A stretch of 64,000 nt of DNA. Origin: Loxodes magnus (Eukaryota > Ciliophora > Karyorelictea > Loxodida > Loxodidae). The translations under genes and the position numbers were made by a program. This document shows positions 16,586 through 64,000 of the stretch, piece after piece. How positions within the stretch are numbered: the stretch's first letter is position 1; each line of letters opens with the position of its first letter. The DNA is taken from the NCBI GenBank assembly GCA_946699065.1, contig CAMPDV010000148.1:496001-560000 (forward strand), written 5' to 3'. The notes under the pieces were generated by a model. That model saw only the letters and a list, made by a program, of their open reading frames with translations, ran no database searches and was not told the origin of the DNA.

Positions 16586-16589
16586 TTTT

Positions 16590-18860
16590 TAATTATTTTG
16601 ATTCCATGAATCGTAATTCTTCCACTACCTTAATTTCATATCATAAAAATTCATGAAGTTCTCACTTCCATCAAACATAAATATTTTATTTTCTTAATAA
16701 AGTGCGTTTCAACATAGTCATTAGCCTGATTAATTATATGGCTATCCATGAATATTAAAATCTTTTAAATCATAATAGTAAGTGCGTTATAAGCTTCCAT
16801 AATTGTCGAACAGAAATCCTAAATTTTAATTTTAAGCGAATACTGCATAGCAATGTTACACATTTTTTGGCATTAAATTAGAAAATTGCCTTCATTTGTT
16901 TTGTGTTACATCATAAAAGCATACTTCTTCTTCTGCGTTTACTCCTCCAAATGTTCATATTTAATCTTAACTATAAAATACTCCATTACATCTCATTTAA
17001 AACGGATGATCATCAATTTCTTTATTTTTTTTACTTTTTAAATCAAAGCATTCGCATTTTTTTGAAAATTCTTAATATGGATTCATTCCATCAATAATAT
17101 AAACATATTTATCGCTTTCATATGACAAAGCTGTATAACTTTTTGGAAATTGCAAATTATACTTGCATACTTAATAACTGTTTACTCATAATATATTATT
17201 TTAATGTTGTTAAGGCTTTGCTCCTCCAGCTAGAACCATTGTTGTATTATTAATTTAAATTGAATTAGTCTAATTATCCTATGTAGTTTCAATAGAAAGA
17301 TTTTCATTTTTAATTTATTTTGTTTAGAGATCATACATTTGCAAAATATTGCTGCCTTTTTTTATTTTTATATAGTTAGTTCATTATATATTTTTTTTTT
17401 CGGTTACTTTAATATTTTTAGGATTTAGTTTTTTTAATGCTTTGAAAAAAGAGTCGAAGCTTTATTAACGCTTTTCAAAATTTTTCTATTATTAATTTTG
17501 ATCGATATCTATATCATTGTTATCAAACGTAAAATATTTTAGCTCAGTAGATTTTTTTATAATTTTGCTAAGGCTTGTTTAGGAGTTTTTAATACTTTAT
17601 ATAATGTTTTAATTTTATAAATTCCAAAAAGTGAATACAAGTATTATATTTTCAGCAATATCGTTCCCAAACTCATTTATTATTTTGTCTATTACTTACT
17701 TAGAATATTGCGTTACTCTATTACTGTTAGATTTAATTACAAATACCATGGCATCTATCTAATTAATTTTGTTTTGAAAAAAGTTACTTAATTGCTAAAA
17801 TATCTTCTCATCTTCTTGTTAATCATTCATTTTACTAAATCCAGGAGTATCCATTATCAATATGTTTGGAATATCTATTTTTTTACTTTGTACTTGGTAG
17901 CAGTTAATTTCTTTATTTTAGTTTTATTAACCTTTTATAGGTCCAGTTATAAGTTAATATCTTAAATTATCTTTAAAACTCACACCTTACATATAATTAG
18001 TAAGAGCGTTTAAGAGAGAAGACTTTCCACATTCTTTTTCTCCTAAAAACAAAATATTTTTCTATTTTACTCCTTAATTAGAAAAGTTTGTGCTTTCATA
18101 TTTTATTATGTAAATTTGCTCAGTCTATTATTAATTCGTTTTCCATATGTTTCAAGTGCTAATGATATTATTATATTACTATTAGTTGGCTTTAAATGTA
18201 AATAAACTTCCTTATTCTTTATATAAAAATTGCTTAAAGTTCTTTTCCTTTAAAAACTATTAGAATCATTAAACTGGTTCTTATTTTATTTAGATTGAAA
18301 ATTTCTTTGATTCATTCAAGTTATCTTAGTGGCTTTCCTAGTTTTCCTTTATTTATATCTATGAACATACTTTTTTGATTAAGTTTATATGCTCTTACTA
18401 AATTACCTATTGATTCTTTATAGAAATTAGATGCAAAAAATCTAAACTTTCTACTTCTATTTCTATCAGATCTTATAGTGTTAATCCTATCTATATTATT
18501 TCATTCTTCATTGAACTTAGTCCATATTTCTCAATTCAGCTAATGTCTTAGTAAATAATTTCTGGTTTGAATCCTAAAGAGTATTTATGAGTACATCAGA
18601 TACTTTTTAAAATTATAATTTCAATAGTCTTAAATAAATCTTCTTAAGTTTTTTAGTTCTTAGTTCTTCTCAGTCCTACTTCCAAAAATTCCCAAGCTAC
18701 ATTATAAAAGTTCTACTCCTCTGCTATATCTCATTATTCTAATCACTTTTCCAGATGTTGTATATTATTTCTTTAAAGCCAATTATTCTATTAATTTCCC
18801 ATTTATTATTAACTTAATAAAATTACTTAAATTATGTTTAGATTTGTGTAAAATAAAATT
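16590..18860 (-). CDS. GTPase-kelch protein (copy 1)
   Basis: This is a fusion of a GTP-binding domain with a C-terminal kelch domain. The P-loop GEKECGKSS lies at 18017-18043 and the G3 motif DTPG at 17840-17851. The stretch FGNDIAENIILVFTFW, just after, resembles AIG1/IAN-like and septin-like GTPases. After a linker come kelch repeats: LAGG, the TFGGVNAEEEV block with Trp as TGA (16955-16957), FYDVTQNKWRQFS with TGA at 16892-16894, and a last repeat ending near RQWKNYDSWNQ. The final part is paralogous to the kelch domain of the RING/B-box gene at 48160. The part 18180-18860 reads as a helical N-terminal region in other frames, which may mean short introns or frame breaks; the true start is uncertain. 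The expected role is a cytoplasmic GTP-dependent switch with a kelch propeller for binding partners. The gene is present three times in tandem. Confidence 0.7.
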
Positions 18861-24424: not shown

Positions 24425-25387
24425 TTCATTACATCACAATAAATCTTCCAGCCTTCACCTTTTCCATACTTACCGTACTTTTTTAATAGGTCTAAGATGA
24501 CTTACGACATATTTCTAAAACTTCATTTTTTAAATACGATATTTTTTTTATCAAATTGTTTTTATTTATTCTACCAAATTATTGAGTAGTAAAAATTGAT
24601 TAATTAAGGGGCATTAAAAAACGAATCTGACTCTTCTATCTCATTGCTTCGATTTTTTTAAGTCTTCTGCTGCATGAGTAGTTGAAAAATAATTTTTTTC
24701 TCAAGATCTAATAAGAAAAAATTTGAAAAAATTCTTCCATATAATTACTCCCAGTGCTTAATGTCTTTAGCATTTTACTGAAATTAACAGGTTATAGGTG
24801 ATATCCTGATAAACTAAGACATAATTAAAAATTATATGTTCTAATAAATAATTTATTTTCAGTATTTCAAACTATAATTAATTAATTTAGAACAATTTTA
24901 AGTGGAATAGCAATTAAGATATTTATATAAAATATTTCAAGTTAAAACAGTTCAGCATTTTATTTTTCGAATTTTATTTCTTAAAATATATCATATAAGC
25001 ATCAGAATAACTATTTGTAATCTTTTTAATTTTAGATAGTATTTCTAGAATTTAACAATGCTTTTAATAAAATTATTTACAGTTTAATTATTATATATTT
25101 TTATTTAGATATATTACAGAAATTTACCATTTTTTTTAGAAGATTTTAGAAAATAAAGAAACTAGAAATAATTTAAAACTTTTTTTAATTACTTAATATT
25201 GATCAATTTATATTACATGTCTATTAAAAATAAGCTTTGAACATTTTAATCTAAAAATATTGTGAGCTATTTAATTTTTCTATTCTTTATTAAATTAAGC
25301 TTAATTTGAAAAATATCAGGATATGAAGTTTTAGTAAATGCTCATTTCATATTTGATAAAAATTAAATTTAGAATCTATAAAGTTTT

Positions 25388-27658
25388 TAATTATTTTGAT
25401 TCCATGAATCGTAATTCTTCCACTACCTTAATTTCATATCATAAAAATTCATGAAGTTCTCACTTCCATCAAACATAAATATTTTATTTTCTTAATAAAG
25501 TGCGTTTCAACATAGTCATTAGCCTGATTAATTATATGGCTATCCATGAATATTAAAATCTTTTAAATCATAATAGTAAGTGCGTTATAAGCTTCCATAA
25601 TTGTCGAACAGAAATCCTAAATTTTAATTTTAAGCGAATACTGCATAGCAATGTTACACATTTTTTGGCATTAAATTAGAAAATTGCCTTCATTTGTTTT
25701 GTGTTACATCATAAAAGCATACTTCTTCTTCTGCGTTTACTCCTCCAAATGTTCATATTTAATCTTAATTATAAAATACTCCATTACATCTCATTTAAAA
25801 CGGATGATCATCAATTTCTTTATTTTTTTTACTTTTTAAATCAAAGCATTCGCATTTTTTTGAAAATTCTTAATATGGATTCATTCCATCAATAATATAA
25901 ACATATTTATCGCTTTCATATGACAAAGCTGTATAACTTTTTGGAAATTGCAAATTATACTTGCATACTTAATAACTGTTTACTCATAATATATTATTTT
26001 AATGTTGTTAAGGCTTTGCTCCTCCAGCTAGAACCATTGTTGTATTATTAATTTAAATTGAATTAGTCTAATTATCCTATGTAGTTTCAATAGAAAGATT
26101 TTCATTTTTAATTTATTTTGTTTAGAGATCATACATTTGCAAAATATTGCTGCCTTTTTTTATTTTTATATAGTTAGTTCATTATATATTTTTTTTTTCG
26201 GTTACTTTAATATTTTTAGGATTTAGTTTTTTTAATGCTTTGAAAAAAGAGTCGAAGCTTTATTAACGCTTTTCAAAATTTTTCTATTATTAATTTTGAT
26301 CGATATCTATATCATTGTTATCAAACGTAAAATATTTTAGCTCAGTAGATTTTTTTATAATTTTGCTAAGGCTTGTTTAGGAGTTTTTAATACTTTATAT
26401 AATGTTTTAATTTTATAAATTCCAAAAAGTGAATACAAGTATTATATTTTCAGCAATATCGTTCCCAAACTCATTTATTATTTTGTCTATTACTTACTTA
26501 GAATATTGCGTTACTCTATTACTGTTAGATTTAATTACAAATACCATGGCATCTATCTAATTAATTTTGTTTTGAAAAAAGTTACTTAATTGCTAAAATA
26601 TCTTCTCATCTTCTTGTTAATCATTCATTTTACTAAATCCAGGAGTATCCATTATCAATATGTTTGGAATATCTATTTTTTTACTTTGTACTTGGTAGCA
26701 GTTAATTTCTTTATTTTAGTTTTATTAACCTTTTATAGGTCCAGTTATAAGTTAATATCTTAAATTATCTTTAAAACTCACACCTTACATATAATTAGTA
26801 AGAGCGTTTAAGAGAGAAGACTTTCCACATTCTTTTTCTCCTAAAAACAAAATATTTTTCTATTTTACTCCTTAATTAGAAAAGTTTGTGCTTTCATATT
26901 TTATTATATAAATTTGCTCAGTCTATTATTAATTCGTTTTCCATATGTTTCAAGTGCTAATGATATTATTATATTACTATTAGTTGGTTTTAAATGTAAA
27001 TAAACTTCCTTATTCTTTATATAAAAATTGCTTAAAGTTCTTTTCCTTTAAAAACTATTAGAATCATTAAACTGGTTCTTATTTTATTTAGATTGAAAAT
27101 TTCTTTGATTCATTCAAGTTATCTTAGTGGCTTTCCTAGTTTTCCTTTATTTATATCTATGAACATACTTTTTTGATTAAGTTTATATGCTCTTACTAAA
27201 TTACCTATTGATTCTTTATAGAAATTAGATGCAAAAAATCTAAACTTTCTACTTCTATTTCTATCAGATCTTATAGTGTTAATCCTATCTATATTATTTC
27301 ATTCTTCATTGAACTTAGTCCATATTTCTCAATTCAGCTAATGTCTTAGTAAATAATTTCTGGTTTGAATCCTAAAGAGTATTTATGAGTACATCAGATA
27401 CTTTTTAAAATTATAATTTCAATAGTCTTAAATAAATCTTCTTAAGTTTTTTAGTTCTTAGTTCTTCTCAGTCCTACTTCCAAAAATTCCCAAGCTACAT
27501 TATAAAAGTTCTACTCCTCTGCTATATCTCATTATTCTAATCACTTTTCCAGATGTTGTATATTATTTCTTTAAAGCCAATTATTCTATTAATTTCCCAT
27601 TTATTATTAACTTAATAAAATTACTTAAATTATGTTTAGATTTGTGTAAAATAAAATT
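25388..27658 (-). CDS. GTPase-kelch protein (copy 2)
   Basis: This is a tandem copy of the gene at 16590-18860, shifted by 8798 bases. P-loop, DTPG motif and all kelch TGA-Trp positions are the same. Only scattered base changes separate it from copy 1 (for example a TGT to TTA-type change in the 5' part), so all three copies were probably equally functional until very recently. Confidence 0.7.
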
Positions 27659-33220: not shown

Positions 33221-34184
33221 TTCATTACATCACAATAAATCTTCCAGCCTTCACCTTTTCCATACTTACCGTACTTTTTTAATAGGTCTAAGATGACTTA
33301 CGACATATTTCTAAAACTTCATTTTTTAAATACGATATTTTTTTTATCAAATTGTTTTTATTTATTCTACCAAATTATTGAGTAGTAAAAATTGATTAAT
33401 TAAGGGGCATTAAAAAACGAATCTGACTCTTCTATCTCATTGCTTCGATTTTTTTAAGTCTTCTGCTGCATGAGTAGTTGAAAAATAACTTTTTTCTCAA
33501 GATCTAATAAGAAAAAATTTGAAAAAATTCTTCCATATAATTACTCCCAGTGCTTAATGTCTTCAGCATTTTACTGAAATTAACAGGTTATAGGTGATAT
33601 CCTGATAAACTAAGACATAATTAAAAATTAGATGTTCTAATAAATAATTTATTTTCAGTATTTCAAACTATAATTAATTAATTTAGAACAATTTTAAGTG
33701 GAATAGCAATTAAGATATTTATATAAAATATTTTCAAGTTAAAACAGTTCAGCATTTTATTTTTCGAATTTTATTTCTTAAAATATATCATATAAGCATC
33801 AGAATAACTATTTGTAATCTTTTTAATTTTAGATAGTATTTCTAGAATTTAACAATGCTTTTAATAAAATTATTTACAGTTTAATTATTATATATTTTTA
33901 TTTAGATATATTACAGAAATTTACCATTTTTTTTAGAAGATTTTAGAAAATAAAGAAACTAGAAATAATTTAAAACTTTTTTTAATTACTTAATATTGAT
34001 CAATTTATATTACATGTCTATTAAAAATAAGCTTTGAACATTTTAATCTAAAAATATTGTGAGCTATTTAATTTTTCTATTCTTTATTAAATTAAGCTTA
34101 ATTTGAAAAATATCAGGATATGAAGTTTTAGTAAATGCTCATTTCATATTTGATAAAAATTAAATTTAGAATCTATAAAGTTTT

Positions 34185-36455
34185 TAATTATTTTGATTCC
34201 ATGAATCGTAATTCTTCCACTACCTTAATTTCATATCATAAAAATTCATGAAGTTCTCACTTCCATCAAACATAAATATTTTATTTTCTTAATAAAGTGC
34301 GTTTCAACATAGTCATTAGCCTGATTAATTATATGGCTATCCATGAATATTAAAATCTTTTAAATCATAATAGTAAGTGCGTTATAAGCTTCCATAATTG
34401 TCGAACAGAAATCCTAAATTTTAATTTTAAGCGAATACTGCATAGCAATGTTACACATTTTTTGGCATTAAATTAGAAAATTGCCTTCATTTGTTTTGCG
34501 TTACATCATAAAAGCATACTTCTTCTTCTGCGTTTACTCCTCCAAATGTTCATATTTAATCTTAACTATAAAATACTCCATTACATCTCATTTAAAACGG
34601 ATGATCATCAATTTCTTTATTTTTTTTACTTTTTAAATCAAAGCATTCGCATTTTTTTGAAAATTCTTAATATGGATTCATTCCATCAATAATATAAACA
34701 TATTTATCGCTTTCATATGACAAAGCTGTATAACTTTTTGGAAATTGCAAATTATACTTGCATACTTAATAACTGTTTACTCATAATATATTATTTTAAT
34801 GTTGTTAAGGCTTTGCTCCTCCAGCTAGAACCATTGTTGTATTATTAATTTAAATTGAATTAGTCTAATTATCCTATGTAGTTTCAATAGAAAGATTTTC
34901 ATTTTTAATTTATTTTGTTTAGAGATCATACATTTGCAAAATATTGCTGCCTTTTTTTATTTTTATATAGTTAGTTCATTATATTTTTTTTTTTTCGGTT
35001 ACTTTAATATTTTTAGGATTTAGTTTTTTTAATGCTTTGAAAAAAGAGTCGAAGCTTTATTAACGCTTTTCAAAATTTTTCTATTATTAATTTTGATCGA
35101 TATCTATATCATTGTTATCAAACGTAAAATATTTTAGCTCAGTAGATTTTTTTATAATTTTGCTAAGGCTTGTTTAGGAGTTTTTAATACTTTATATAAT
35201 GTTTTAATTTTATAAATTCCAAAAAGTGAATACAAGTATTATATTTTCAGCAATATCGTTCCCAAACTCATTTATTATTTTGTCTATTACTTACTTAGAA
35301 TATTGCGTTACTCTATTACTGTTAGATTTAATTACAAATACCATGGCATCTATCTAATTAATTTTGTTTTGAAAAAAGTTACTTAATTGCTAAAATATCT
35401 TCTCATCTTCTTGTTAATCATTCATTTTACTAAATCCAGGAGTATCCATTATCAATATGTTTGGAATATCTATTTTTTTACTTTGTACTTGGTAGCAGTT
35501 AATTTCTTTATTTTAGTTTTATTAACCTTTTATAGGTCCAGTTATAAGTTAATATCTTAAATTATCTTTAAAACTCACACCTTACATATAATTAGTAAGA
35601 GCGTTTAAGAGAGAAGACTTTCCACATTCTTTTTCTCCTAAAAACAAAATATTTTTCTATTTTACTCCTTAATTAGAAAAGTTTGTGCTTTCATATTTTA
35701 TTATATAAATTTGCTCAGTCTATTATTAATTCGTTTTCCATATGTTTCAAGTGCTAATGATATTATTATATTACTATTAGTTGGTTTTAAATGTAAATAA
35801 ACTTCCTTATTCTTTATATAAAAATTGCTTAAAGTTCTTTTCCTTTAAAAACTATTAGAATCATTAAACTGGTTCTTATTTTATTTAGATTGAAAATTTC
35901 TTTGATTCATTCAAGTTATCTTAGTGGCTTTCCTAGTTTTCCTTTATTTATATCTATGAACATACTTTTTTGATTAAGTTTATATGTTCTTACTAAATTA
36001 CCTATTGATTCTTTATAGAAATTAGATGCAAAAAATCTAAACTTTCTACTTCTATTTCTATCAGATCTTATAGTGTTAATCCTATCTATATTATTTCATT
36101 CTTCATTGAACTTAGTCCATATTTCTCAATTCAGCTAATGTCTTAGTAAATAATTTCTGGTTTGAATCCTAAAGAGTATTTATGAGTACATCAGATACTT
36201 TTTAAAATTATAATTTCAATAGTCTTAAATAAATCTTCTTAAGTTTTTTAGTTCTTAGTTCTTCTCAGTCCTACTTCCAAAAATTCCCAAGCTACATTAT
36301 AAAAGTTCTACTCCTCTGCTATATCTCATTATTCTAATCACTTTTCCAGATGTTGTATATTATTTCTTTAAAGCCAATTATTCTATTAATTTCCCATTTA
36401 TTATTAACTTAATAAAATTACTTAAATTATGTTTAGATTTGTGTAAAATAAAATT
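34185..36455 (-). CDS. GTPase-kelch protein (copy 3)
   Basis: This is the third tandem copy, shifted by 17595 bases from copy 1, with the same motifs and TGA-Trp codons. Near identity of three copies of a ~750-codon gene suggests recent amplification or gene conversion. Confidence 0.7.
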
Positions 36456-36935: not shown

Positions 36936-37430
36936 CTTTTATTTATCTCAAAACGATAAATAAAAGAAATCAAATTTTATTCTTAATAAAAGTCTAGTAA
37001 TGCTCTATCTTCGCCTTATCTCTTTGTTCATTTTTTCTTATTTTCTCCGTATTTAAAATAAAATTGATTACTTTCTTCCTAATTTCTTATGAATCAGTCC
37101 GAAGGCAGGAGCTCGAAGGGATTAAAGGATAATCCGATACTTGGTTCAAATGCCACAGTTATGTTAAATTTTTCTAAATAAAAAATAATTTCTTATCTAA
37201 GTATGTTTTTAGATTTTCGAATTCCTGACAAGATTAACGCATGTAAAGACAGGATAATTCTAGACCTGGACTTCAGTGCTTCCTAGTCAAATTATCGTAC
37301 TGATAGAGAGAACCCCCAAATAAGTAAGGCTTATCTAACAAGGGCGCTTCCTTATTTATTTGTAGTGGCATCTATTACTAGAGTACTTATAATACAGATA
37401 CCAACTCTGGTGACTAGAGTCAAAATCCAT
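36936..37430 (-). repeat. Head module, second type (unit copy 3)
   Basis: This is a tandem copy of 19341-19835 with an identical terminal hairpin at 36936-36966. Confidence 0.6.
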
Positions 37431-38605: not shown

Positions 38606-39557
38606 ATATTATTAAATTATATATAAATGCTTCTCCATTATTAGGGAATTTCATCCTGTTAGGAGTACAGCACTTAAATCTCCTCGCTGTTTGTTAAAAT
38701 GTTCGACCAAGGGAAGATTACGCGTTTCTATCCGCAAGTTTTTTTAGTTGGCTTTTCATCCTACATTTCTGTCAAGTCTTGTTTATAGTCTGTCTTCTGC
38801 CTCTTGTACATGCTTCCATTTTTGCTGCAGAAAATCTTGTTTAATCTGCCTTTTTCTGAACACTTTGTTTGTCGAAAATTTGTTGCTATTAATTGAACTT
38901 CCGACAGTTCGATTTAGGTACTGTTGGCTTCCGCAGCAGAATAATCTCTTCCTGATCGAAATTAAACTTGTCTGAGGTGTGGCTTTGGATTAAACGGTCA
39001 TAGAGATAGATTCAGTATTCAACTATTCCATTATTTATTCTTTTAGAAGTTGAACTTCTTATTCTTGTTTCACTACTAAATCCTTCAGTTAGTCGTGCTC
39101 TTGTCTTAATGACGTTGGATGCCGAAGAATGCCTCCACTTAACGCTCATAGTTACCTATACCAGCCTCGCCCTATTAGTTCTTTTCTTCCAACTTGAACA
39201 TTAGTTTTTCAAACAAGTACTTTAATTTTTAAGGCTCTTCTTAGAGATTTACCGCCATCAATGGAGCTATGATACATCAAATTTCTCTGAGTTGAATCAA
39301 AGTATATATTTAATCATGAAGTATTATCTCTTGCTATATTAGAGATCTCTCTTCCGTGTTTCGGGTTTGACAAGTTTATTTCTGACCCTTGCCCAATATT
39401 AGAAATTGTTAAATCTAAGGTTAGGATTAAGTTTTTTGCTGATCAGAAGGTTGGGCTTATTAAAGCTAATATATGAAGATATAAGAAGTTACATTTCATT
39501 CCCTCTCTTCTTTTTTAATGAAGAGGTGTTAAAGAAGCCCTATCGAATCCCTGCCAT
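38606..39557 (-). mobile_element. ORF1-like gene, type beta (unit copy 3)
   Basis: This is a tandem copy of 21010-21961, very close to copy 1. Confidence 0.45.
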
Positions 39558-39739
39558 TTTTTATATAATAAAATAATTAACATAGATATAAGCTTAAAAG
39601 CTTCTACGTATCTATTTATTTAAGAGATTAAAAAAGAAAAAGTAAAAATATAAAAAATTCATAATCTCAATTAAGTAACCAGAAGCATTTTATGATTAAT
39701 GCCATGTATGATCTAATGGAGAATTAATAAATCAAACTA

Positions 39740-40625
39740 AAATATTAAGCAGGCAAAAATAATTAGACAATTAATAAAGAGATTAAAAGAAGATCAATTA
39801 TGTAAAAAATTTTATACCATATTAAAATATTAAAATGAGGTTGATGGACCCAAACTATTTTATTAAATCAGTAACTGCGAAACAAAGATAAAATATAGAA
39901 AAAACGAAGATAATTGCATGATTAAAGAGTCATTAATAAGAAAATAAAAAGCAATTAATTTTATAAAAAAAATTAGATTTAAGAAATAAAAGTAAAAGAG
40001 TGATATGATGGCAGATGAAAAAAATAATTAACAGAATTATATATTATAAAAGAGAAATAAGAGCATTTAGATTATATAGAAAATATGTCTAAATTCTAAT
40101 TAAATAATTAAAAAAGGAAGAAAAAAAATTAATTTATAGTTCGAGAAAATATATAAAACTTAAATGATAAAATCTTAGATAACTTAAATATTAAAAAATT
40201 ATTTATAGTAGAATAAAAATAAAATTAACTTCAATTATTGTATTTAGAATCACTCTATCTAATATAAAAGAAATTTTAGGAGTTTAATAGCATTTATTTA
40301 ATATTTTAATAATATTAAGCATTAAAATCTAAACTAATAATTGAAAAGATGGTGGGAGCTGAGAATGACCTTCGTGACAACACTTTCTGGCTAGGAACAA
40401 GTTCCTTTCCTGTCGCTGAGAAAGTCCCTAATTAGACATTTTCTGAAGGGAACGCTGTCTTTGAGAATATCAACTCTTGGTGGGGGCTTGAAGCCTGGCT
40501 GCTCATAGCGATGGAGCTCCCTAGCAGCTGTGCCAGGAGCAAAACATGATATCCCCGTTATTCCATAAAAGAGGCGTCGGGTCGTGCAATCAGAAAGGAG
40601 TTTTCGGTACAAAAACTTTTTTAGT
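39740..40625 (+). pseudogene. Coiled-coil coding-like stretch with G+C-rich island (unit copy 3, diverged)
   Basis: This is the tandem copy at the array end, island 40349-40620. Compared with copies 1 and 2 it lacks 8 bases at the phrase ctttatgg and has several single-base indels and substitutions. The plus-strand frame is not kept through the island. Confidence 0.45.
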
Positions 40626-40865
40626 GGAATTAATAAAATCTAAACTATTTTATTGTAAAAATTGATAGAAAATAAATTTGATTAAGTATAAAAATCATAA
40701 CAAAAATTATAGTAATCTATGAAAATATGAAAAATAAAGTTCTAATGAAACTTAAAATACTTAAAGGAAATATAAAAATAAAATAATAAATTCAATATTT
40801 ATCTTATCATTATAGCTTGATTTGATAAATAGAATTAATTAAATTACTATAATAATTATTATTTT

Positions 40866-41592
40866 AGTGATTCCACCTATCCATAAGGTTAATCACTGTA
40901 ATTTAAAGTTGTATTAAGTATAATTTATTTCCAGGCTTCCTGGGTCTTCTTCTTAAAGTATTTATCTTCCATTACTATTTTAACCCTTTTTAATAAAAGG
41001 TATCTTGCTCCAGTCGAGTTCGATTCATTCGTATTCAAATTTCTTCTTTTCTAAGCAAATGCGATGTCCTTCAAGATTTCATTCCCTGTGTACATCTTTT
41101 TTTGTATATTGAACCTTCCTGAGTACAGTATAGTTTGCTTATGGATCTCTATAGGATAAAGCTTTCAAGTTTTTATTTGTATTCGAATTTTTAGCATTAT
41201 CTTAAAATATGACCATATTTCCTGCAATGCCAGCAATACTTTCTATTCTTTATTATCGGAATTTTTGCTGGCTGTAGATTTGGTTCCACATCCGTGGGAT
41301 CATTTGCTATTGTATTTTTTAGAAATAAGCTTTCAGTCAATTCTGCTAATTGATTGAATTTGACTTCTATTTGTTAAATTCTCATATTGACTGGTTAGGA
41401 ATTTTCATTTTTTAGTATTTATGTATTAGACATTAGGTATGCAATTTTTCCTTCTAACTCTTATACGTTTCTTAAAGTTTAAACTTTTCCATTTGCATAA
41501 TTTTGAGTTCTTGGAGTATGTTGTGCCAATCGTAATTTGATTAGGACGGATCCTGTTTAGAAGAGACTTTTACAAGAAATTAACCATTTTTT
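40866..41592. repeat. 8.8-kb tandem unit, partial copy 4
   Basis: Only the ORF1 type gamma part is present. Similarity ends just beyond the ATGG at 41587, and the following 25-base inverted repeat leads into LINE copy 1 on the plus strand. This copy is the most diverged of the four. Confidence 0.9.
40875..41587 (-). mobile_element. Retroelement ORF1, type gamma (partial copy 4)
   Basis: The 3' two thirds of the type gamma ORF1 remain, including the knuckle at 41194-41235. The head part upstream of the ATGG at 41587 is replaced by the start of LINE copy 1 in opposite orientation. Confidence 0.6.
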
Positions 41593-41609
41593 TTATATAT
41601 AATATAATT

Positions 41610-41634
41610 AAACAAATTTATCTTAAATTTGTTT
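41610..41634. repeat. Perfect inverted repeat at the LINE 1 boundary
   Basis: AAACAAATTTA and TAAATTTGTTT form 11-base arms around TCT. It lies between the broken edge of the fourth 8.8-kb copy and LINE copy 1, and may mark an insertion or rearrangement point. Confidence 0.6.
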
Positions 41635-41639
41635 AAAAA

Positions 41640-44060
41640 ATAATTCTTTGAAAAAGCCTTATTAAGGAAAAGATATAGACTTCTAAAAATATTTTAAGAA
41701 AAAATTCTTATTAAAATTAAGAAGATTAAAGTGAAAAATTGAAAGATTTAAATAATTTAAATATAGTAAATAGTCTTCACTAAATTATTTAAAATTACAA
41801 AGGAATTAAATGAATTTTAATGAAGAACTTAGTAACTCCTTTATTGATAACTGAGAAACCTTTTGTTAAACAAACATTAAAATGTAACTTAAGAACAACT
41901 TAATTTTAGTAAACGGTAAATAGATCTTATTTATAGAAATCCTTAACTTATCAATTACCCGACTTCTCACTTATAAAATTTTGAAATTTTAAGAAATTTA
42001 AAAAATTATTCAACATATTCCAAATGGTAAGACAGCTGGACCAGATGGAATAAAGGTTGAACTCATCAAGTACGCTGGAGAAGAGTTACAATAAATAATT
42101 CACTGCTTTATCAATAATATGAAGCGACTTTAATAAATTCCATAAAAGCTGAATACCTCCATTATCATTCCTATTTTCAAGAAATGTAGTAAGAGTGATT
42201 GGAACAACTGAAGACCAATTTCCCTTATGAATACTATATTGAAGATCTACGACAAGGCTTTAACAGAAAAGATTTACAAAATTCTTTAAGAACGAAACTT
42301 CATACATCCTGCATAAATGGAATTTCTCAAGAAGAGACAAACAGCCCAGTAAATATGATAATTGTAGCAGATAATTGACCTCTATTAGAGTGAAGGGAAA
42401 GGCTACAATGATACTTGCTCCTCTTATTGATGTTGAGAAGATGTTTGATAGTATTGAGATAAGAACACTTTTTCAACATCTAAGGAGAATAAAACTATCT
42501 TTGGGATTGATACTGGCACTAGAGTCTTTCTACAGTAACCTGAATTCCTCTTTTCTATTCGATGGGTAAACAACTCGTCGACTTCATTACAACAATGGAG
42601 TTATGCAAGGGAGTTCACATGGTCCTGTACTCTCCCTCCTATATTATGATATAGTAATCAGACATTTATAGGAAAGAAATACACATCTAGGTATCAATTT
42701 GCACAATTTGAACTTTGCATACAGAGCGGGCAGATGACCTTATACTCCTTTCTTGTTCTGCTTAAAGGATGTAATAACTCATAGATTAATGCAACAATTT
42801 TTCAGTGAATTTTTCTGTAAATTAACACTAGTAAATGTGAAGCAATACAATTTGTTAAAAAAAGAAGAGCTAAACAAATCGAATTAAACTTGAAACTGGA
42901 AAGTTAACATATCAAACAGAAGAATCAAGTGACATATCTTGAGTTATAATACAAGAAAATGGTATTTTGATCAATCATTGTAAATAGAGAATTTAAACAT
43001 ATTTAGAATCGGTAAAAAAATGCCTTTATACTCTCAGCCGATACAAGAATGTTACTCCCCTACACTTTAAAATGCTTTGTCGCATGTTTACGTTGTCTAA
43101 GGCTGAATACGGTGGAGAATTGGTTCCTTGAACTATAATGAGAGGCTCATAGTCTATGAAAGAGAAGATAAACAAAGCCATGCGTATAATTGCGAGGAAG
43201 GTTTTACAGTTGCCTATCTCTGTCTTTAATGAGTACTGTTACATAGATTTTAACTGCCTCCCTTCTGAACATATTATGGTTAGTGCTTTTTTCCGTTTCT
43301 ACTTTAAAATACGGAAAGAAGCTAGGACTTATCCGGAATCCGATATAGGAAAACTCTTTGAATGCAATTGAAACTAAAAATCTTTGTACTTTTAGTAAGT
43401 TAAAAGGATGTTTTAATATTACGGAATTACGACCAAACCATGATTTCTAATTAACTTTCTTTTGAGAATCTTATTGTAGAAAAATAAGAAACAAATTCTA
43501 TTAAGAAGCAACTATACGATATAGAGACACGCCCACTGCACAGATATTTAGAGAGAAACTTGGAGGACTTTTTAAATTTCCTGAAATAAATTACAGTAAA
43601 CTAAACAAAGATTATAAAAAAGAAATCATCTCAATCTTTAAATTACGAACTAATTCTTACAGTTTTCAATATGACTTACATATGCGTCGTTATCCTGTAA
43701 AAAATTACCTCTGCAAATGTGGTGGAAAAGACACGTTTAGACATATCTTCGAATGTGTCTACTATTAGGACATAGTTAGAAATATCTCTGATAAATTTCC
43801 TGGAAAAAACTTGGAAAAGCTAGTAACTTACGATTAACTCTATATAAACTATCAGTTCACTTCTCATAAGTAAATGTATGCAGATCTTCAGATAAAAATT
43901 TTTCATAAGAATCTACGAAAAAAAAGAATTTAAATTGTAGAACAAAACACAGATAATTGGTTGGAGCCTAAAGAAGAACAATAAAAAAGCACAATAAACA
44001 ATGGGGAAAAGTTGGAAGATGGAAAGAACGATGCTTTTGAACATAATTAAAATGAAGTAT
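41640..44060 (+). mobile_element. LINE (non-LTR) reverse transcriptase, copy 1
   Basis: This is a reverse transcriptase of a non-LTR retrotransposon. In order: NGKTAGPDGIKVELIKYAGE (from 42024), IIIPIFKK, the motif DWNNWRPISL with the second Trp as TGA (42209-42211), HPAQMEFLKK, then in another frame the palm motif LIDVEKMFDSI (about 42425), GVMQGSSHGPVLS (about 42597) and ADDLILLS (42730), in a third frame relation. The C-terminal zinc motif CKCGGKDTFRHIFEC lies at 43712-43756. At least two frame changes separate the motifs, so the copy is dead unless short introns explain them. No endonuclease domain is recognised upstream. Conserved Gln in HPAQ is TAA. It abuts the fourth ORF1 gamma copy in divergent orientation. 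Confidence 0.85.
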
Positions 44061-48159: not shown

Positions 48160-50049
48160 TTATTCAAAACGTTTCCACTATTTATCTTTCACATCGTAAA
48201 AATTTAAAAATTATTCACTTTGGTCACACATAAATATTTTACTTTCTTAATAAATAGCATTTCAGCTTAATCAAGAACCCGATTTCGGAAATTATTGTCC
48301 ATGCTCGTAGAAATTCTTAAAATCAAAAGAATAAGTCTTTTGTAATTCTTCATAATTATCAAATAAAAAGCTCAATTCTATATCTGGTGCATATACACCA
48401 TAACATCAACCTGCATTTTTAGGCATTTATTTTGAAAACTATTTTCATTTGTTTTATTCTATGTCATAAAAACTAACTTCTTCTGCAGCATTTACTCCTC
48501 CAAATGTTCATATGAAATCGTAAGCATAAAATATTCCATTACACATTAGTTTACAAAGATGGTCTGCAATTTCTTTTTAATCACTGATTTAGTTATCTTT
48601 TACATTGAATTTCTCACATTTGTTAGAATATCCTTGTGAGTTTTTTCCACCAATAATAAACATTTGCTGAAAATTATCATAAGATAAGCTTGGATGTTAT
48701 TTTGGTATTAATAGATTATATATTTATGTTTATGAATTGTTAACTTTTATTATACTTTTTAGATGTTTATTAGCATCTTATCCTCCTGCTAAAATTATAG
48801 TTTCATTACTAATCTAAATTGAATAGGTACAATTACTTGAAACAGCTTAAATATTAAGATTATTAGTTGATATTTATTTATTCGTAAGATTAAATATTTA
48901 TACAATATTGCTGTCTCTTTTTATTTTTAAATAGTGTGTTCAATTTACTTTTTAGTTATTATTTCGTGTTTTTATTAGCATTTCATTTTAAGGATCTATT
49001 CTTTGCAATTCATTTAATAGTTCATTATATTATAATTACAGATTACTTTGCTTCTAATTAGCTTAATTAACATCCTATAATAGCTTTTTATTATTTTAAG
49101 TCATTTAATCATTTTGCTCTTATAATAATTTATTTTCTTCGATTTTTTATTTAACTTATTCTTGCAATCCATTTACTTAATTATTTAATTCAGATATTTA
49201 TTTTTCTTGATTTTATAAAGATTAAGTTATATCTTAAAATATTTTATTTTAAATTTTAATTTTTAATATTTCTTTTATTTAAGATTTATCTTATCTAACT
49301 GTTTTTTTTATTTCATCTTTTTAAAATTATTTTTCACATAGTTATTTTATTTACTAAATTTATTATAGTTTTATTTCACACTTTTCAATTGTTTTATCTT
49401 CTAGTTTACCTATTATAGTAATCTAATTTTATAAATCTTTTAATTCTTATAGTTTTTGCATCTTTTATTTTTATAAATCTTCAATTTATGTAAATTATTT
49501 TTAGAGCTCCAAAGCACATTAAAACTAAATTTAAGTGAATAAATTATTTTGAAAGTTTGTTATTGATTCTCTTCATTCATTTTTCTGCAAATTCTATTAA
49601 TTTAAAGAAAGTAAAGATTCTTTAATTCTTGAATCAATATTTAATTTCTCTAACATTTCTTAAAGTACTTTTTTAATCTAATTCTAGAGATCTTTTAGTT
49701 TTTCTTCAAGAAACACAAATTAATGTCCTTAATGAGTTGTAATTGCACATGTTCCACATATTAAGATATTATCAGTTAAACAGATCAAATCTTTAACTTT
49801 TTGATGAGTTTAGCAACAGTTATTTTCCTAAATTTAAGGCTTTTCTTCTTAAAATTAATTAGCTTTCTGTAATTCTTCTATTGGTTTTCTAGTATTTTAG
49901 TTGTGAATTTCACAATAAAATTTATTTTGTGCTTTATAAACCAGTTTTAAACATTTTTCACATCTAATACATTAGCAATCAAGTATTAATGGTTTTCTTT
50001 TATCTTAATCAAATATTTTTTCACATATTTTACAAATGTTTTCTTACAT
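48160..50049 (-). CDS. RING / B-box / coiled-coil / kelch protein (TRIM-like), copy 1
   Basis: The ATG at 50049 starts MQENICKICEKIF, an atypical RING finger (C-x2-C, then CQCIRCEKC and YCEIH). A canonical B-box 2 follows, CCQTHQKVKDLICLTDNILI continuing C-x2-C-x4-H-x2-H. Then comes a ~230-residue coiled coil rich in Gln coded by TAA, and a kelch domain of at least four repeats (LAGG, FIIGGKN, TFGGVN, FYDVKDKQWKRFE). This is the order of TRIM/RBCC ubiquitin ligases with a kelch substrate-binding end. About seven Trp are TGA and one is TGG; TGA sits at the canonical kelch Trp (48445-48447) and in IWTFGG (48508-48510). The frame stays intact over ~630 codons and matches copy 2 with mostly conservative changes, so it is probably a working gene. 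The likely end is TAA at 48160-48162. Confidence 0.8.
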
Positions 50050-50579: not shown

Positions 50580-52750
50580 AGTAAGCTATGAAAAAATCTT
50601 GAACTCTCTCTGTGAAAATTTGGAAAAATAAAGCAAGCAAAAGTTCTTCTTTCTCAATAAAAATCACAAAGATATGCTTTCACAAGCTTAAAAATTCTTT
50701 ACCCTAGATAAAGAAATAAAATTAATTTTAACCAAGAAAAATAAAAAATATTTTATAATTCAAGAGAAAGTTTAGTTTTAGAAAACAATTAAACTTGCCA
50801 TAGCAATAGATTGAATTTAGAAATCAAGGAATAAATAAAATATATAAAAATAATTAAGAAATTCTTAGCTAACCATCATATGCTTATAAGATTTTGAACA
50901 TTTCACTTTATAAGAAATTTAAGAAGTCCCAAATGGATAAACAAATGGCCCAGATAGAATTAATGGAAAGTAATTGAAATATGAAGGAGATTATCTCACT
51001 ACGATACTTCACTCTTTTATAAATAATATTCTTAGACTTGGAAGAATATCTGATAAATTTAACATTTCAATCATTATTAAAAATTTTTAAATATAATAAA
51101 AATAACTGCAAAATTGGCGTCCAATTTCACTTATCAATTCTATACTAAAATTGTATGAAAAGGCTCTACCAAAGAGATTATGCATTTTAATTTACTAAGG
51201 AAACTTAATTCACCCCAAGTCAAATAGCATTCATAAAAAGTGACAAAAAGCTTAATGGATATTGGTAATCTATTAAATAATAGATATCTTCCACAAATAA
51301 ACTTAAGGAAAAACTAATTTATAGTAAATTTTATAGATGTCAAAATAATATTTGGTTCTATATGGAGGAGATTGCTATTGAGTTAACTTAGAAGAATTAA
51401 ATTACCATTTAAACTTATAAAAGCATTTGAATCTTTCTACGAAAATTTTAGTTCATCGTTTCTCATAGAAAGATAGAATACTAAAAACTTTATTACAGCA
51501 ATAGAGTTATGCAGGGAAGCTCGCAATGACCTGTTAACAAAATTGTATAATGATATCTATTCATTATTTAAAAAATAAACATAATTTTATAGGATTTATA
51601 TACTCAAAATTAGATAAAAGTTTCACACATAGAAGATGGTTAGACAACTTAATTTTTTTATCAAAATTAAAAAATATGGAAACCTTAATAAACGAAAAGA
51701 ATATAATTTTACTTTAACCTGTTTAAAGATAAATAAGCCTAAATGTGAAGCTATCTTACTTTAAAAAAGAATCAAAATAACGAATAAAAATTAAATCTGA
51801 AGATTGATGACTAATCAATTATTAAAAATAATAAGCCACTTTTTTGGGAGTGCTTCTACACTAAAAAGAAATTTGAAAAATCACTGAACGAAATTGCGTC
51901 TAGGTATTTAATGCTATGAAAAAACTGTATTTGATTGCTAAGGTATAAAAACGTGACTTCATGCATTTCAAAACTTTATGTAGATTTTTAACTCTTCCAA
52001 AAGCTGAATATGGTGACGAGCTAGTACTTTGAAGTACTTAATATGGAATCTCTGTTGCAATAAACAAAATAGATGAAAATATATGGTTTACTTCAAGGAA
52101 AGTTCTAATCATCAGAATACAAATTTAAAGAATCATGCTATATAGATTTGATTTTAATGCCCTTCAAGTACTTACAGCTCTGAGATCCTATAATTTTTTT
52201 TTAATAAGAAGAGAAAGTATTGATTATCCATAATAAAATATAGTTATGCTATACTAGACTAAATGGAGCATATAGAAGATAAATTATTAGTTTTGATAAG
52301 ATTAGAACCCATTCATTCTATTTCCGAAAATATCTTTAAGGCCATCATTGCCCTGCTAATAGCCCTTTTTGTATCTGTGGAGATTATGATATTTTCGACC
52401 ATATAATGGAATGTAATTACTATTTAGATATAATGGAATTATTATAGTAAAAGATAGGGAATTTCAAAATAAAACATTTGATTCTCTATAATCAAATTCA
52501 TATAAGCATGTTTCTTAGTAGTCAAGCAATAGAGATAGATTTACAAATCAAAATACTTCACCGATTGTTACTTGATCGAAAAATGGAGTTATTTAAAATA
52601 GAAAAGAACGAATAATCAGAAGATATTTAGATAAGATTGAAAATGAAGAGGAAATCATGTGATGTGATGAAACTTTTAAAATTAAATGTTTTTAATTCAA
52701 GGAAGAAACTCTGACAATTAAAGATTTCAAAAATCTTTGTAGTTTTCATT
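50580..52750 (+). mobile_element. LINE reverse transcriptase, copy 2
   Basis: This is homologous to LINE copy 1 and somewhat more complete upstream of the palm (helical segment from about 50590). Motifs: VPNGQTNGPDRINGK (about 50930), QNWRPISLINSILKLYEKAL with Trp as TGG at 51115-51117, FTPSQIAFIK with Gln as CAA where copy 1 has TAA, and FIDVKIIFGSI in which the second catalytic-site Asp is replaced. Next come SFYENFSSSFLIE and the zinc motif CICGDYDIFDHIMEC at 52370-52414. The region of the A-D-D-L motif reads LDNL. Several frame changes and lost catalytic residues show that it is dead. No endonuclease domain is recognised. Confidence 0.8.
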
Positions 52751-52829
52751 TAAATTTAATTTTTTATAATAATAATCATTTAAATGTTAAATTATTTCTT
52801 TTCCCTGGACTTTTAACCAGGTGCCTGCA

Positions 52830-53130: not shown

Positions 53131-53158
53131 TTTTCTTATAATAAATAAAGATGATTAT

Positions 53159-53551: not shown

Positions 53552-53849
53552 TTGATATTATATATAATAATAATAAACTATAAAAGTTTCAATATTTGAA
53601 ATATTGAGGCATAACTGCATAATTATTAGTAAATAATCAAGTAAATTATGTTAAATTTAAAATTTTCTGCATTTTCAATCATGGCTCTCTTTCACTCTCG
53701 TCTTGATAAGGATTCGATTATTTCTTTAAATCTATTTATTATTTTCTTTTAATAGGATCTATTTTTTCACTCTAGACTCTAAAAATCTTTAATCTTCTTC
53801 TAAATAATTACAGATGGAATATTTTTATGTCTATATCTACTTTAATCAT

Positions 53850-56340
53850 CTTACTTTCTGTAAATTATTGATTAATATAGTTTTAGCCATATATAATTAG
53901 TCTTCTTTAATCTTCTCCAGTAAATATTTTGTGTTTATTAAAATTCTAAAAATATCTGAATAAAGATTACATAGGAAAATGTGCTCAAATGTATCAAATT
54001 CCTATCCGCATAAACAAAGTTAGCTGAATTATGTTTCGACATATCATTGATTCAGTCCATATTAAAAATTATAAGTATAAGTCCTTAGTTTATGGATTGA
54101 AATAGTTCCTTAGATTAAATGTCTATTGTATTTGGTGTATGTTATTAAAGGGAAAAATTTTAATTACTTTCTATTTAATCAATAAATCTTTTTGCTGTTC
54201 TCATTATTGCATTCCTTTACAAGCATTCTGAAAAGAAATGTTTAGATTTAAATATTGAGATGCTTATTAAACTCTTTGAAATCATAAGTTCTATAAATAT
54301 CTAAATCATATTTTTCAATGCTTTTATCTATATATTTCTTGTAGGGAAGGTATTATACTTTTGAAGTAAAAAGGCTATATCTGAATTAGGATTTTCCTAA
54401 CTGATTCAAGTTAATTTTCAATAAAAACGCATAAATTTTTATGTCGAAGAGTGGATGAATAGAAGTCAATTTAGATCAATAAAACAAGATTCATTAAATG
54501 AAGATTAAGAAGATTTGAAAGCTAATCTTGATAAAAGTCTTTAAGATCTAGTAATTTTTCTAATCCTTCCTTTAATTCCTGACATTACTGCTCAAAGAGT
54601 TATATTGCTTCCATATTCTACTTTGGGTAAAATGAAAGTTCTACAAAGGTTTTTATAACTAATTGGAGATAAAATACCATATTTGGAAAGTACAGCGTCG
54701 TTTTAAAAATAGTTCTCCTGTATACAGAAACCTTTTCTTCACAATGCTTTTTATAATTTTACTTACTACCCAATTTGTAACCTAGATAAGTGATTGAGTC
54801 TTTCTATAGGATTGGAATTCCATTAATGTTTAAGTTAATTTCAGTTTCTTTTTATTTTTTTTCAAAAATTAAATCTTTTCACATTTCATTGCGTTTATGT
54901 TAAGTCTTACTCAAGAAAAATATTGATTGTGGCTTTTAATAGTTTCTGGGCATTTTTTTAAGAATCTGCAAATTCAATTAAATGCTCAGCAAAACAACGC
55001 ACAACGAAAGATCTGGAACAAACATTAAATCCTAGTTTCTTTTAATTATCTTCTAAATATCTTACTACAATGTCATAGTATAGAATTGCAAGTACAGGAC
55101 TATAACTACTTCCTTATAGAACACCATTATTAATCTTTATTGTTCTAGTAAGATATCCATCAATAATAAACTTAGCATTAATGTTTTTATAAATTGATTC
55201 TAGAGCAAGAATTAAGTAGAAGAAGCCTCAGTCTTCTTAAATGAATAATAAGTAATTTCCTATGTATACTATCAAACATTTTTTCTACATCAATTAAAGC
55301 TGCAATTAATTATTTCTTTCTTGATCATCTACGATGTAAATCAATGATTTATTTAATTGTTCAGATTTATTAAGTAGTAGAACATTTACGGAGAAATCCA
55401 ACTAAGCTGAGTGTAAAATATTTCGCTCATATATATAATAACAAAGTCTTTAAGTAATTGCTTTATCATAAACTTTTAACAAAATATTTAGCAAAGCAAT
55501 AGTCTCCAATTACTTCAAATATTTTTACTTCCTTATTTGAAAATAATAAGTATATTAACTTTTTTCAAATTATTCTGTATATTAAACGTTCTTAACATAT
55601 TATTTATAAAACAAGTAATTATTTTATATAATTCTTACCCTCCATATTTTATAAGTTCAGCTTTAAGACCATCACAACCTGAGGCTTTATTATTTGCTAG
55701 TTAAGATATTATTTTTTTTTAATTTCAAGATCCAAAAAAAGAGGCATAATCTAAAGATGACTCAATTCATAGTTGTTGATAAAAGACTTAGTTTTATATA
55801 TTCCATTTATCTTATTATTGGAAAATTCTATTTCTTCTTAACTAAGATTTGAATGCTTATTAAAAACTAGGTTTCTCAACTGTTACTAAATAATTACTGT
55901 TAGTTTTAATTGTAATTCATTTAGTTACTAATTTTTGGGTTTATTAGATTCTTAGCTTATTTAAACATTATTTAAGCATCTTTATTAAGATCATAATATC
56001 TTTTCTTGGCTTTTATTTTTTTCACTTTCAAAATTAGTATAAATAATACCTTTAGGATTTATTTTTAATCTAGAATAGATTTCTAACCTCTTAATTATGC
56101 CTTCCATACAAAAGCAAGCTATTTTAATATGAAAAATTGTATTTTTTAGCTTAGATAAATAATTAAGTTAAATAACTTGGCAATCTATAATAATTGCTTT
56201 TCTAGTTTTGCAATCCAATAGCTATATCAGCATTATAAGTAATTAGGTCACAAATAAAATTATACTAACTCTCGACATCAACTTGCTCAATCAATTAAAA
56301 TTAGTAATATTATCCTATAAATAGACTTTAATAGCAGTTT
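53850..56340 (-). mobile_element. LINE reverse transcriptase, copy 3
   Basis: This is a minus-strand homolog of LINE copies 1 and 2. A pre-palm helical segment with RYYDLNKDAQIMFKQAKNLI lies around 56000. Next are NNKASGCDGLKAELIKYGG (about 55690-55640) and NIWSNWR with TGA then TGG (55515-55517 and 55506-55508), the reverse of the TGG/TGA order in copy 1. AALIDVEKMFDSI lies near 55290 and INNGVLQGSSYSPVLAILYY near 55130. At the A-D-D-L position the sequence reads FAEHLIEFA, so the catalytic Asp pair is not visible. The zinc motif CLCGQEFDTFEHIFLC is at 53969-54016. Some frame changes are present. The copy looks inactive. Confidence 0.8.
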
Positions 56341-60680: not shown

Positions 60681-60689
60681 AAATTAAAA

Positions 60690-61990: not shown

Positions 61991-62159
61991 AAATTGAATT
62001 TGTGACTAACCAAATAAAGGTGATTACTTTAATCTATTATGTTATGCTATTCAAAAATTAAAATATTATAAAATATTTTAAGATATTTAATGCTTATAAG
62101 ATTCTTTTAAATTATTTTGTTTTAAATTAAAAAAAATTTAAAGAAAATTCTCATTTCAA

Positions 62160-64000
62160 TCATAGCGTTTCCACTCTTTTACTTTCACATCATAGCAATT
62201 CATATAGTTTTCACTATCGTCACACATAAATATTTTACTTTCTTAATAAATAGCATTTCAGCTTAATCAAGAACCCGATTTCGGAAATTATTGTCCATGC
62301 TCGTAGAAATTCTTAAAATCAAAAGAATAAGTCTTTTGTAATTCTTCATAATTATCAAATAAAAAGCTCAATTCTATATCTGGTGCATATACACCATAAC
62401 ATCAACCTGCATTTTTAGGCATTTATTTTGAAAATTATTTTCATTTATTTTATTCTATATCATAAAAACAAACTTCTTCTTCTGCATTTGCTCCTCCAAA
62501 TGTTCATATGAAATCGTAAGCATAAAATATTCCATTACATATTAATTTACAAGGGTGGTCTGCAATTTCTTTTTAATCACTGATTTAGTTATCTTTTACA
62601 TTGAATTTCTCACATTTGTTAGAAGATCCTTGTGAGTTACATCCACTAATAATAAAAATTTGTTGTAAATTATCATATGATAAGCTTGGATGTTATTTTG
62701 GCATTAATAGATTATATATTTATGTTTAGGAATTGTTAACTTTTATTATACTATTTAGATGTTTATTAGCATTAGCTCCTCCTGCTAAAATTATAGTTTC
62801 ATTACTAATCTAAATTGAATAAGTACAATTACTTGAAACAGCTTCAATATTAAGATTATTAGTTGATATTTATTTATTCGTAAGATTAAATATTTATACA
62901 ATATTGCTGTCTCTTTTTATTTTTAAATAGTGTGTTCAATTTACTTTTTAGTTATTATTTCGTGTTTTCATTAGCACTTCATTTTAAGGATCTATTCTTT
63001 GCAATTCATTTAATAGTTCTTATTTTAATATTTACAGATTACTTTGCTTCTAATTAGCTTAATTAATATCTTATTATAACTTTTTATTATTTTAAGTCAT
63101 TTAATCATTTTGCTCTTATAATAATTTATTTTCTTAGATTTTTTATTTAACTTATTCTTGCAATCCATTTACTTAATTATTTAATTCAGATATTTATTTT
63201 TCTTGATTTTATAAAGATTAAGTTAAATCTTAAAATATTTAGTTTTAGATTTTTAGTTTTAATATTTCTTTTATTTAAGATCTATCTTATCTATCTATAT
63301 TTTTTATTAATTCTTATTATAATTACTTTTCACATAGCTCTTTTATTTATTAAATATATTATAGTTTTATTTCACACTTTTCAATTGTTAAATCTTCTAG
63401 TTTATCTATTATAGCAATCTAACCTTTTAAATTTTAAACTTCTATTAGTTTTTACATCTCCTATTTTTATAAATCTTCAATTTATGTAATTTATTTTTAT
63501 AGTTCCTAAGCGCATATAAACTAAATTTGATTGAATAAATTCATTTTAAAGCTTGTTACTGATTCTCTTCATTCATTTTTCTGCTAATTTTATTAATTTA
63601 AAGAAAATAAAGATTCTTTAATTCTTTAATCGACATTTAATTTCTCTAACATTTCTTAAATTATTTTTTTAATCTAATTCTAAAGATTTTTTAGTTTTTC
63701 TTCGAGAAACACAAATTAATGTCCTTAATGAGTTGTAATTGTACATGTTTTGCATATTAAGATATTATCAGTTTTACAGATCAAATCTTTAACTTTTTGA
63801 TGAGTTTAGCAATAATTATTTTCTTAGTTTTGAGATTTTTCTTCTTTAATTTCATTAATTGTAGGCAATTCTTCTATTTTTTTATTAGTGTGCATATTAT
63901 GATGCTCGCAATAAAATTATTTATATGCTTTTAAAATCGGTTTGAGACATTTTTCACATCTAATACACTAGCAATCCAGTATTAATGGTTTCCGTTTTTC
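62160..64000 (-). CDS. RING / B-box / coiled-coil / kelch protein (TRIM-like), copy 2, 5' end cut by the window
   Basis: This is the paralog of 48160-50049, partial only because the window ends inside the RING region (CQCIRCEKC is present, the start is not). The B-box reads YCQTHQKVKDLICKTDNILI with C-x2-C-x4-H-x2-H after it. The kelch domain is nearly identical to copy 1 from about 62220 to 62480, but the last repeat differs strongly (CDDSENYMNCYDVKVKEWKR). All TGA-Trp codons seen in the part of copy 1 it covers are kept, and changes such as Ser TCA to Gln TAA keep the frame, which supports a working gene. The likely end is TGA at 62156-62158, at the codon where copy 1 has TAA. Confidence 0.8.

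Follow-up and report, generated by a model that had tools for sequence, protein, structure and literature searches.

The window (the whole stretch of DNA that was analysed, 64,000 nucleotides) is AT-rich and carries five copies of kelch-repeat genes, three copies of a reverse transcriptase (RT) element, and both direct and diverged repeats. All five gene copies lie on the minus strand and belong to two families. The first family comprises two B-box-kelch genes. Gene A (48160..50049), placed by Pfam matches and codon counts, encodes a weak RING domain (E 0.02), a B-box (E 4e-7), and kelch repeats, and gene B (62156..64000), placed by Pfam matches and comparison with A, encodes a B-box (E 6e-8) and kelch repeats and is cut by the window end. 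The second family joins an MMR_HSR1 GTPase domain (E 3e-9) to kelch repeats and is found at 16589..18802 (copy 1, placed by Pfam matches and codon counts), 25387..27600 (copy 2, offset +8798), and 34184..36397 (copy 3, offset +17595). Each of these GTPase-kelch copies lies within an 8.8-kb direct repeat, which is present in three copies plus a partial fourth at 14400-41600 and whose divergence is concentrated at 14.4-15.4 kb and beyond 19.4 kb of the copy.

The Pfam scans translated TAA and TAG as Gln and TGA as Trp. They omitted 4991-13999 and 23791-41989 (both largely repeats) as well as 52601-53499, and they covered a single strand at 41990-43899, 50801-52600, and 53500-55999 (regions of the RT elements) and at 48891-50499. 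In the scanned regions, the only matches with E <0.05 were the RT of the first element (LINE 1) and the minus-strand GTPase-kelch and B-box-kelch frames. Additionally, a codon model for which A, B, and GTPase-kelch copy 1 served as training frames selected only A, B, and the three GTPase-kelch copies. When aligned to PDB entries with X at TGA, the B-box matched TRIM-type proteins, and the kelch part gave no kelch match; the predicted kelch structure (pLDDT 40) was too poor to use. The PDB alignment was set aside as a means of reading residues at TGA, since only one gene B TGA lies near the B-box and none within it. Long open reading frames (ORFs) under the table-6 ciliate code at 48609-49535, 49539-50588, and 62605-63531 (plus strand) stand wholly or partly opposite the kelch genes and are probably shadows of real genes. 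Long table-6 ORFs in general were rejected as genes, being at chance level, and the absence of long standard-code ORFs is uninformative, as chance predicts the same.

Each of the five kelch copies holds one frame through 54-59 TAA, 10-18 TAG, and 7-12 TGA codons. Gene A, with 633 codons in frame, has 59 TAA, 12 TAG, 7 TGA, and 1 TGG; gene B, with 613, has 55 TAA, 10 TAG, 7 internal TGA, and 1 TGG; and the GTPase-kelch gene, counted over 741 codons (18802-16580), has 54 TAA, 18 TAG, 12 TGA, and 6 TGG. Despite 177 nucleotide differences, the alignment of A with B is ungapped over 617 contiguous codons. When gaps were made cheaper in a nucleotide aligner, it opened them in pairs that cancel each other, so that the frame is kept either way. 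Single-base changes between the two genes over 614 codons are 39 synonymous and 64 nonsynonymous, against 28 and 75 expected without selection, which gives a dN/dS of ~0.61 (P 0.012) in the true frame; the remaining two sense frames yield 1.20 and 1.82, and the antisense frames 0.86, 0.74, and 1.59. The GTPase-kelch copies are near-identical: within the gene, copy 1 differs at 3 sites from copy 2 and at 5 from copy 3. This low divergence was rejected as a sign of selection, as the nearest flanks are about equally low.

The placement of TGA is conserved both within and between the two families. All 7 internal TGA codons of gene A are also TGA in gene B. The kelch part of the GTPase-kelch gene could be aligned to B over 300 codons with 152 identical residues (~50% identity), the gaps of the protein alignment being of whole codons, and differences between the families are only slightly biased by codon position (101/84/114). 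In this aligned part the two genes have 6 and 7 TGA codons, of which 5 are shared (hypergeometric P 6e-9 against random placement, homologs sharing codons by descent anyway), which argues against independent nonsense mutation and nothing further. As a class, TGA is conserved in 10 of 13 cases when the GTPase-kelch gene is compared with B, the highest value of any codon class in that pair, and in 10 of 12 when it is compared with A, second only to TGG-coded Trp (2 of 2). The exceptions are a GTPase-kelch TGA that faces Lys in both B-box-kelch genes and a TGA common to A and B that faces His in the GTPase-kelch gene.

One of the conserved codons stands in YDIEQNK-TGA-KQFS of gene B (62441..62443, minus strand) and is also TGA in gene A (48447-48445) and in the copies of the GTPase-kelch gene (16894-16892 for copy 1); we take this position to be the kelch consensus Trp. 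In gene B, 16 residues (Ala, Asp, Ile, and Pro were omitted) were substituted at TGA and scored on Pfam models. Trp was the best of the 16 on Kelch_4 (43.2 bits; next Phe, 37.9), Kelch_6 (29.2; next Tyr, 26.5), and Kelch_KLHDC2 (37.0; next Tyr, 36.7), and barely the best on Kelch_1 (12.5; next Cys, 12.4). With five residues compared (Trp, Phe, Tyr, Cys, and Arg), Trp was the best in gene A on Kelch_4, Kelch_6, Kelch_KLHDC2, and Kelch_1, and in the GTPase-kelch gene on Kelch_4, Kelch_6, Kelch_1, and Kelch_FKB95; on Kelch_KLHDC2, the latter gene scored higher with Tyr (36.2), Cys (33.6), and Phe (32.9) than with Trp (30.3). The original prediction had proposed counting the residues opposite TGA in RT and kelch homologs, and for the kelch homologs of the window the outcome was in its favour, with the five shared TGA columns and Trp as the best residue on most kelch models. 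The comparisons indicate that in-frame UGA would specify Trp in the kelch genes. Under this reading, the two families (gene A plus one GTPase-kelch copy) have 19 TGA and 7 TGG codons for Trp, and UGA makes up 1.1-1.6% of the codons in kelch genes, a share drawn from two gene families, which are too few to generalise.

These genes bear directly on the possibility that the window follows the table-6 code (UAA/UAG, or UAR, as Gln and UGA as stop) and has decayed, the TGA codons in the RT and kelch frames being nonsense mutations. We regard this as improbable. The kelch genes stay in frame for 613-741 codons that include 7-12 TGAs. Two families that are ~50% identical have 5 TGA columns in common, and A and B have all 7 of their internal ones in common; decay is not expected to put the same nonsense codons into paralogs that are otherwise in frame. 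What speaks for decay under table 6 is the chance level of the long table-6 ORFs and the state of the RT elements.

The three RT elements are frameshifted remnants, referred to here as LINE 1 (41806..44045, plus strand), LINE 2 (50612..52607, plus strand), and LINE 3 (53719..55924, minus strand), the extents of LINE 1 being set by alignment. LINE 1 matches PF00078 (RVT_1) in two frames, at 32.1 bits in one and 26.4 in another (cut-off 29.6), and its best PDB matches are L1 ORF2p and R2. An RVT_1 domain with LINE-type relatives identifies it as a non-LTR retrotransposon (LINE) RT. No Pfam matches were found for LINE 2 and LINE 3, both of which rest on alignment to LINE 1; LINE 3 additionally matches L1 ORF2p and R2 at E 0.003-0.04. 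In every copy, the aligned RT pieces are spread over all three frames.

It was in these elements that a reciprocal swap of TGA and TGG was first flagged, at an RT motif before RPISL, and the letters are as the original prediction described them. LINE 1 reads TGG-AAC-AAC-TGA (42200..42211, plus strand; TGG at 42200-42202 and TGA at 42209-42211); by alignment, the corresponding motif of LINE 2 (51106..51117, plus strand) has TGG at 51115-51117 and CTG at its other position (51106-51108), and that of LINE 3 (55506..55517, minus strand) has TGA at 55517-55515 and TGG at 55508-55506. In the PDB alignment, the residue of human L1 ORF2p opposite the flagged TGA is Phe, so the column is aromatic and not strictly Trp. 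A further TGA column, overlooked in the original prediction, is common to all three copies (43129..43131 and 52030-52032 on the plus strand, 54594-54592 on the minus strand; alignment and letters) and stands after GELVP, DELVL, and SNITL.

To what extent the LINE copies speak for UGA as Trp can be judged from a tally of 12 best-frame pairwise matches with an identity of at least 30%, taken best frame first and comprising 1062 codon pairs. The 23 codons facing TGA comprise 3 TGG, lying in 2 columns, and 2 TGA, which are a single pair counted from both sides; the remaining 18 are other codons. TGG occupies 12 of the 2124 aligned slots, and its occurrence opposite TGA exceeds the random-codon rate. 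An unfiltered tally (3 TGG and 16 TGA among 111) was discarded, as it contains wrong-frame matches. The signal beyond chance that the LINEs suggest by themselves is only weak; the swap at two columns is weak evidence because a single TGG to TGA transition during decay could yield it. The claim that random nonsense mutation would hardly produce such a swap accordingly fails for copies that are broken and in which 18 of 23 TGA partners are neither TGG nor TGA. Judged by the refutation proposed in the original prediction, TGA codons falling at random relative to conserved Trp, the LINEs would be a poor witness for the code, and the RT swap was given up as its chief proof, the copies being frameshifted and most of their TGAs lying opposite non-Trp residues. 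The same observations, namely the split over three frames, the 18 of 23 partners, and the ordinary nature of a TGG to TGA transition, are the points in favour of nonsense mutation under table 6.

The reading of UAA and UAG draws on both the kelch genes and the LINE copies. A substitution test of TAA/TAG on the kelch and B-box Pfam models of gene B tried Gln, Glu, Tyr, and X only, and Gln was the best of these four. Gln scored above Glu on Kelch_4 (43.2 vs 38.8 bits), Kelch_KLHDC2 (37.0 vs 35.4), the B-box (34.0 vs 33.2), and Kelch_6 (29.2 vs 26.1), and barely so on Kelch_1 (12.5 vs 12.2), while Tyr scored lower and lost Kelch_6. In the LINE copies, CAA/CAG, TAA, and TAG interchange at two RT glutamine columns. 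The first was part of the original prediction and is confirmed: HPA-TAA in LINE 1 (42314-42316) faces PSQ with CAA in LINE 2 (51221-51223), to which LINE 3 adds TAG (55404-55402), so that the column reads TAA, CAA, and TAG across LINE 1, 2, and 3. The second is the glutamine of the QG(S) motif, encoded by CAA in LINE 1 (42606-42608), CAG in LINE 2 (51512-51514), and TAA in LINE 3 (55114..55116, minus strand). Where TAR changes between A and B, the partners are Lys (6), Glu (5), Leu (4), Gln (3), and others, with no clear preference for Gln. In-frame UAA and UAG would, by these comparisons, be read as Gln.

A code of the Blastocrithidia type, with UAR as Glu and UGA as Trp, can be weighed against the same data. 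The changes between A and B include more UAR/Glu (5) than UAR/Gln (3) cases, the Glu scores are not far below those of Gln, and Glu alone adds a weak propeller model (Beta-prop_ATRN-LZTR1, 12.8 bits, E 0.07). Against it stand the advantage of Gln on five kelch and B-box models, narrow on some, and the interchange of TAA/TAG with CAA/CAG at the two RT glutamines. Table 31 of Blastocrithidia (PMC12153298) likewise reassigns all three stops, with UGA as Trp, and differs in UAR as Glu and in a much higher coding GC (ORF GC 38.7-46.4%). Taken together, these points make a Glu reading of UAR in the window highly improbable.

In our view the window is very probably nuclear DNA of a ciliate-type eukaryote in which, within genes, UAA and UAG are read as Gln and UGA as Trp, a code claim carried by two gene families. 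The proposal that all 64 codons can be sense is thus supported, and its support, which is at the level of sequence, comes from the kelch homologs and not from the flagged RT motif. This kind of code is already known, from a few single-celled organisms, and is rare; to the known cases the window contributes two gene families, each in several copies, whose Trp would mostly be encoded by UGA. For annotation it carries a caution, namely that the standard code would miss these kelch genes.

Karyorelicts and Condylostoma had been named as precedents, which holds, and to these Blastocrithidia (with UAR as Glu) and Amoebophrya ex Karlodinium veneficum are to be added. The karyorelict code (table 27), described in Seah et al. 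2022 (through PMC11441545), likewise assigns in-gene UAA/UAG to Gln and UGA to Trp in Loxodes magnus (PMC11441545) and Parduczia sp. (PMC4967479). A karyorelict resembling Loxodes is the likeliest source of the window, L. magnus being the closest fit through its RVT_1 copies, tandem repeats, and table 27, although coding GC is 21-24% in the window genes vs 33.5% in L. magnus (PMC11441545). UGA accounts for 0.120% of codons in Parduczia (PMC4967479) vs 1.1-1.6% in the window kelch genes. Condylostoma magnum (table 28; PMC4967479) likewise has 64 sense codons, with UAR as Gln, UGA as Trp, and mixed stops possible; unlike in the window kelch genes, UGA is hardly used there, at 0.042% of codons. 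In the nonstop code of Amoebophrya ex K. veneficum, a dinoflagellate parasite that is AT-rich for its genus, all three stops occur in frame, with UAR likely Gln and UGA Trp (PMC12005148); the word "retrotransposon" is absent from the main text of that source. The window code fits a mode of operation shared with karyorelicts, Condylostoma, and probably Amoebophrya ex K. veneficum, in which termination would depend on context.

Which codons terminate can be approached at the ends of the kelch genes. On the minus strand, homology between A and B ends at GAA-TAA in A (TAA 48162-48160) and at GAT-TGA in B (TGA 62158-62156), and after these codons GC drops from ~21-22% to 12% (A) and 10% (B). Beyond its TAA, gene A has the next in-frame TGA 64 codons on, in sequence of 12% GC. 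The GTPase-kelch gene ends either at TAA (16591-16589) or at the next TGA (16546-16544), 15 codons later. The last internal TGA lies 34 codons before the end in A and B and 40 in the GTPase-kelch gene (counted to TAA 16591). None of the three ends has a TGA in its last 20 codons; in gene A, a TAA lies 17 codons from the end, and the GTPase-kelch gene, if it ends at TGA 16546, also has TAAs within its last 20 codons. Depletion of coding UGA and UAA in the last ~20 codons is a feature of karyorelict table 27, to be compared here with three ends only.

Gene A appears to end at TAA, whereas the karyorelict rule has UGA as the only stop (PMC11441545). Across the three ends, a UGA-only stop agrees with B as it stands, with the GTPase-kelch gene once it is slightly extended, and with A only on the assumption of a lost stop. 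The strict karyorelict code, a narrower form of our preferred reading in which UGA is Trp internally and the sole terminal stop, stands at about an even chance. In its favour, the TGA of gene B falls exactly at the end of homology to A, is followed by sequence of 10% GC, and lies 34 codons downstream of the last internal TGA; moreover, the LINEs and tandem repeats of the window fit the LINE- and repeat-rich DNA of L. magnus, with ~2,700 RVT_1 copies and many tandem repeats (PMC11441545). Its difficulties are the TAA of gene A, with no in-frame TGA for another 64 codons, which one stop-loss mutation would reconcile, and the TAA at 16591 of the GTPase-kelch gene, with the next TGA 15 codons later.

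The homologous ends TAA and TGA, with a sharp drop in GC after both, speak for a second narrower form, a Condylostoma-type code (table 28) in which UAA, UAG, and UGA are all sense internally and any of the three can stop translation close to the mRNA end. We consider this form possible, if rather unlikely: there is only one such pair of ends, gene B might run on to a TAA, given the likeness of its YD-TGA-NENFL-TAA to YDSWNQNN-TAA in the GTPase-kelch gene, and UGA makes up 0.042% of C. magnum codons (PMC4967479) vs 1.1-1.6% in the kelch genes. More doubtful still is a code of an unsampled lineage in which UGA would be the main Trp codon and genes would end at UAA, or at UAA and UGA, and not at UGA alone; if true, it would be a fuller reassignment of UGA than tables 27 and 28 describe. 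As duplicated genes with differing homologous end codons (TAA and TGA), A and B offer a direct place to test which codons terminate.

For the reading that we prefer, the decoding apparatus can be sketched by analogy. UAR would be read by tRNA-Gln with UUA and CUA anticodons, and UGA by a tRNA-Trp, probably one with a CCA anticodon whose anticodon stem is shortened, as in other organisms with such codes; the UGA reader proposed for these is a tRNA-Trp(CCA) whose anticodon stem has 4 bp (PMC13092985). Release factor eRF1 would terminate only near the mRNA 3' end, where the same triplets could still act as stops. The three LINE copies may then be decayed elements that spread while using this code. 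ARAGORN found 0 tRNA genes in the 64-kb window, in which there were also no Rfam matches. The original prediction would have counted the lack of a tRNA able to read UGA and UAA/UAG as a refutation. A missing tRNA-Trp(UCA) would be unsafe in this role because searches of the nuclear genomes of C. magnum, Blastocrithidia, and Amoebophrya Kv did not find it either (PMC13092985; PMC4967479).

Relatives of the window were sought among other contigs. Protein scans of viral contigs returned none, a weak result in that the back-translated patterns may exclude TAA and TGA. Genome contigs were scanned with a DNA pattern, and among the pattern matches (7 in viral and 56 in genome contigs) six-frame blastp at E 1e-3 found no relative of the window. 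Several further repeats are present within the window itself. A direct repeat of 2.74 kb occupies 5240-13380 in three copies that are ~99% alike and have 15% GC, and diverged repeats at 1757-2164, 53108-53453, 15264-15606, and 60680-61132 show similarity, in several frames, to one another or to the 8.8-kb repeat. Within the 8.8-kb repeat, a CCHC zinc-knuckle-like frame was seen by eye at 14689-15459, 23489-24259, and 32285-33055 (minus strand) and is perhaps a retroelement ORF1; in the 32-kb copy its motif is CWYCRKYGHILRQC, with the Q encoded by TAA.
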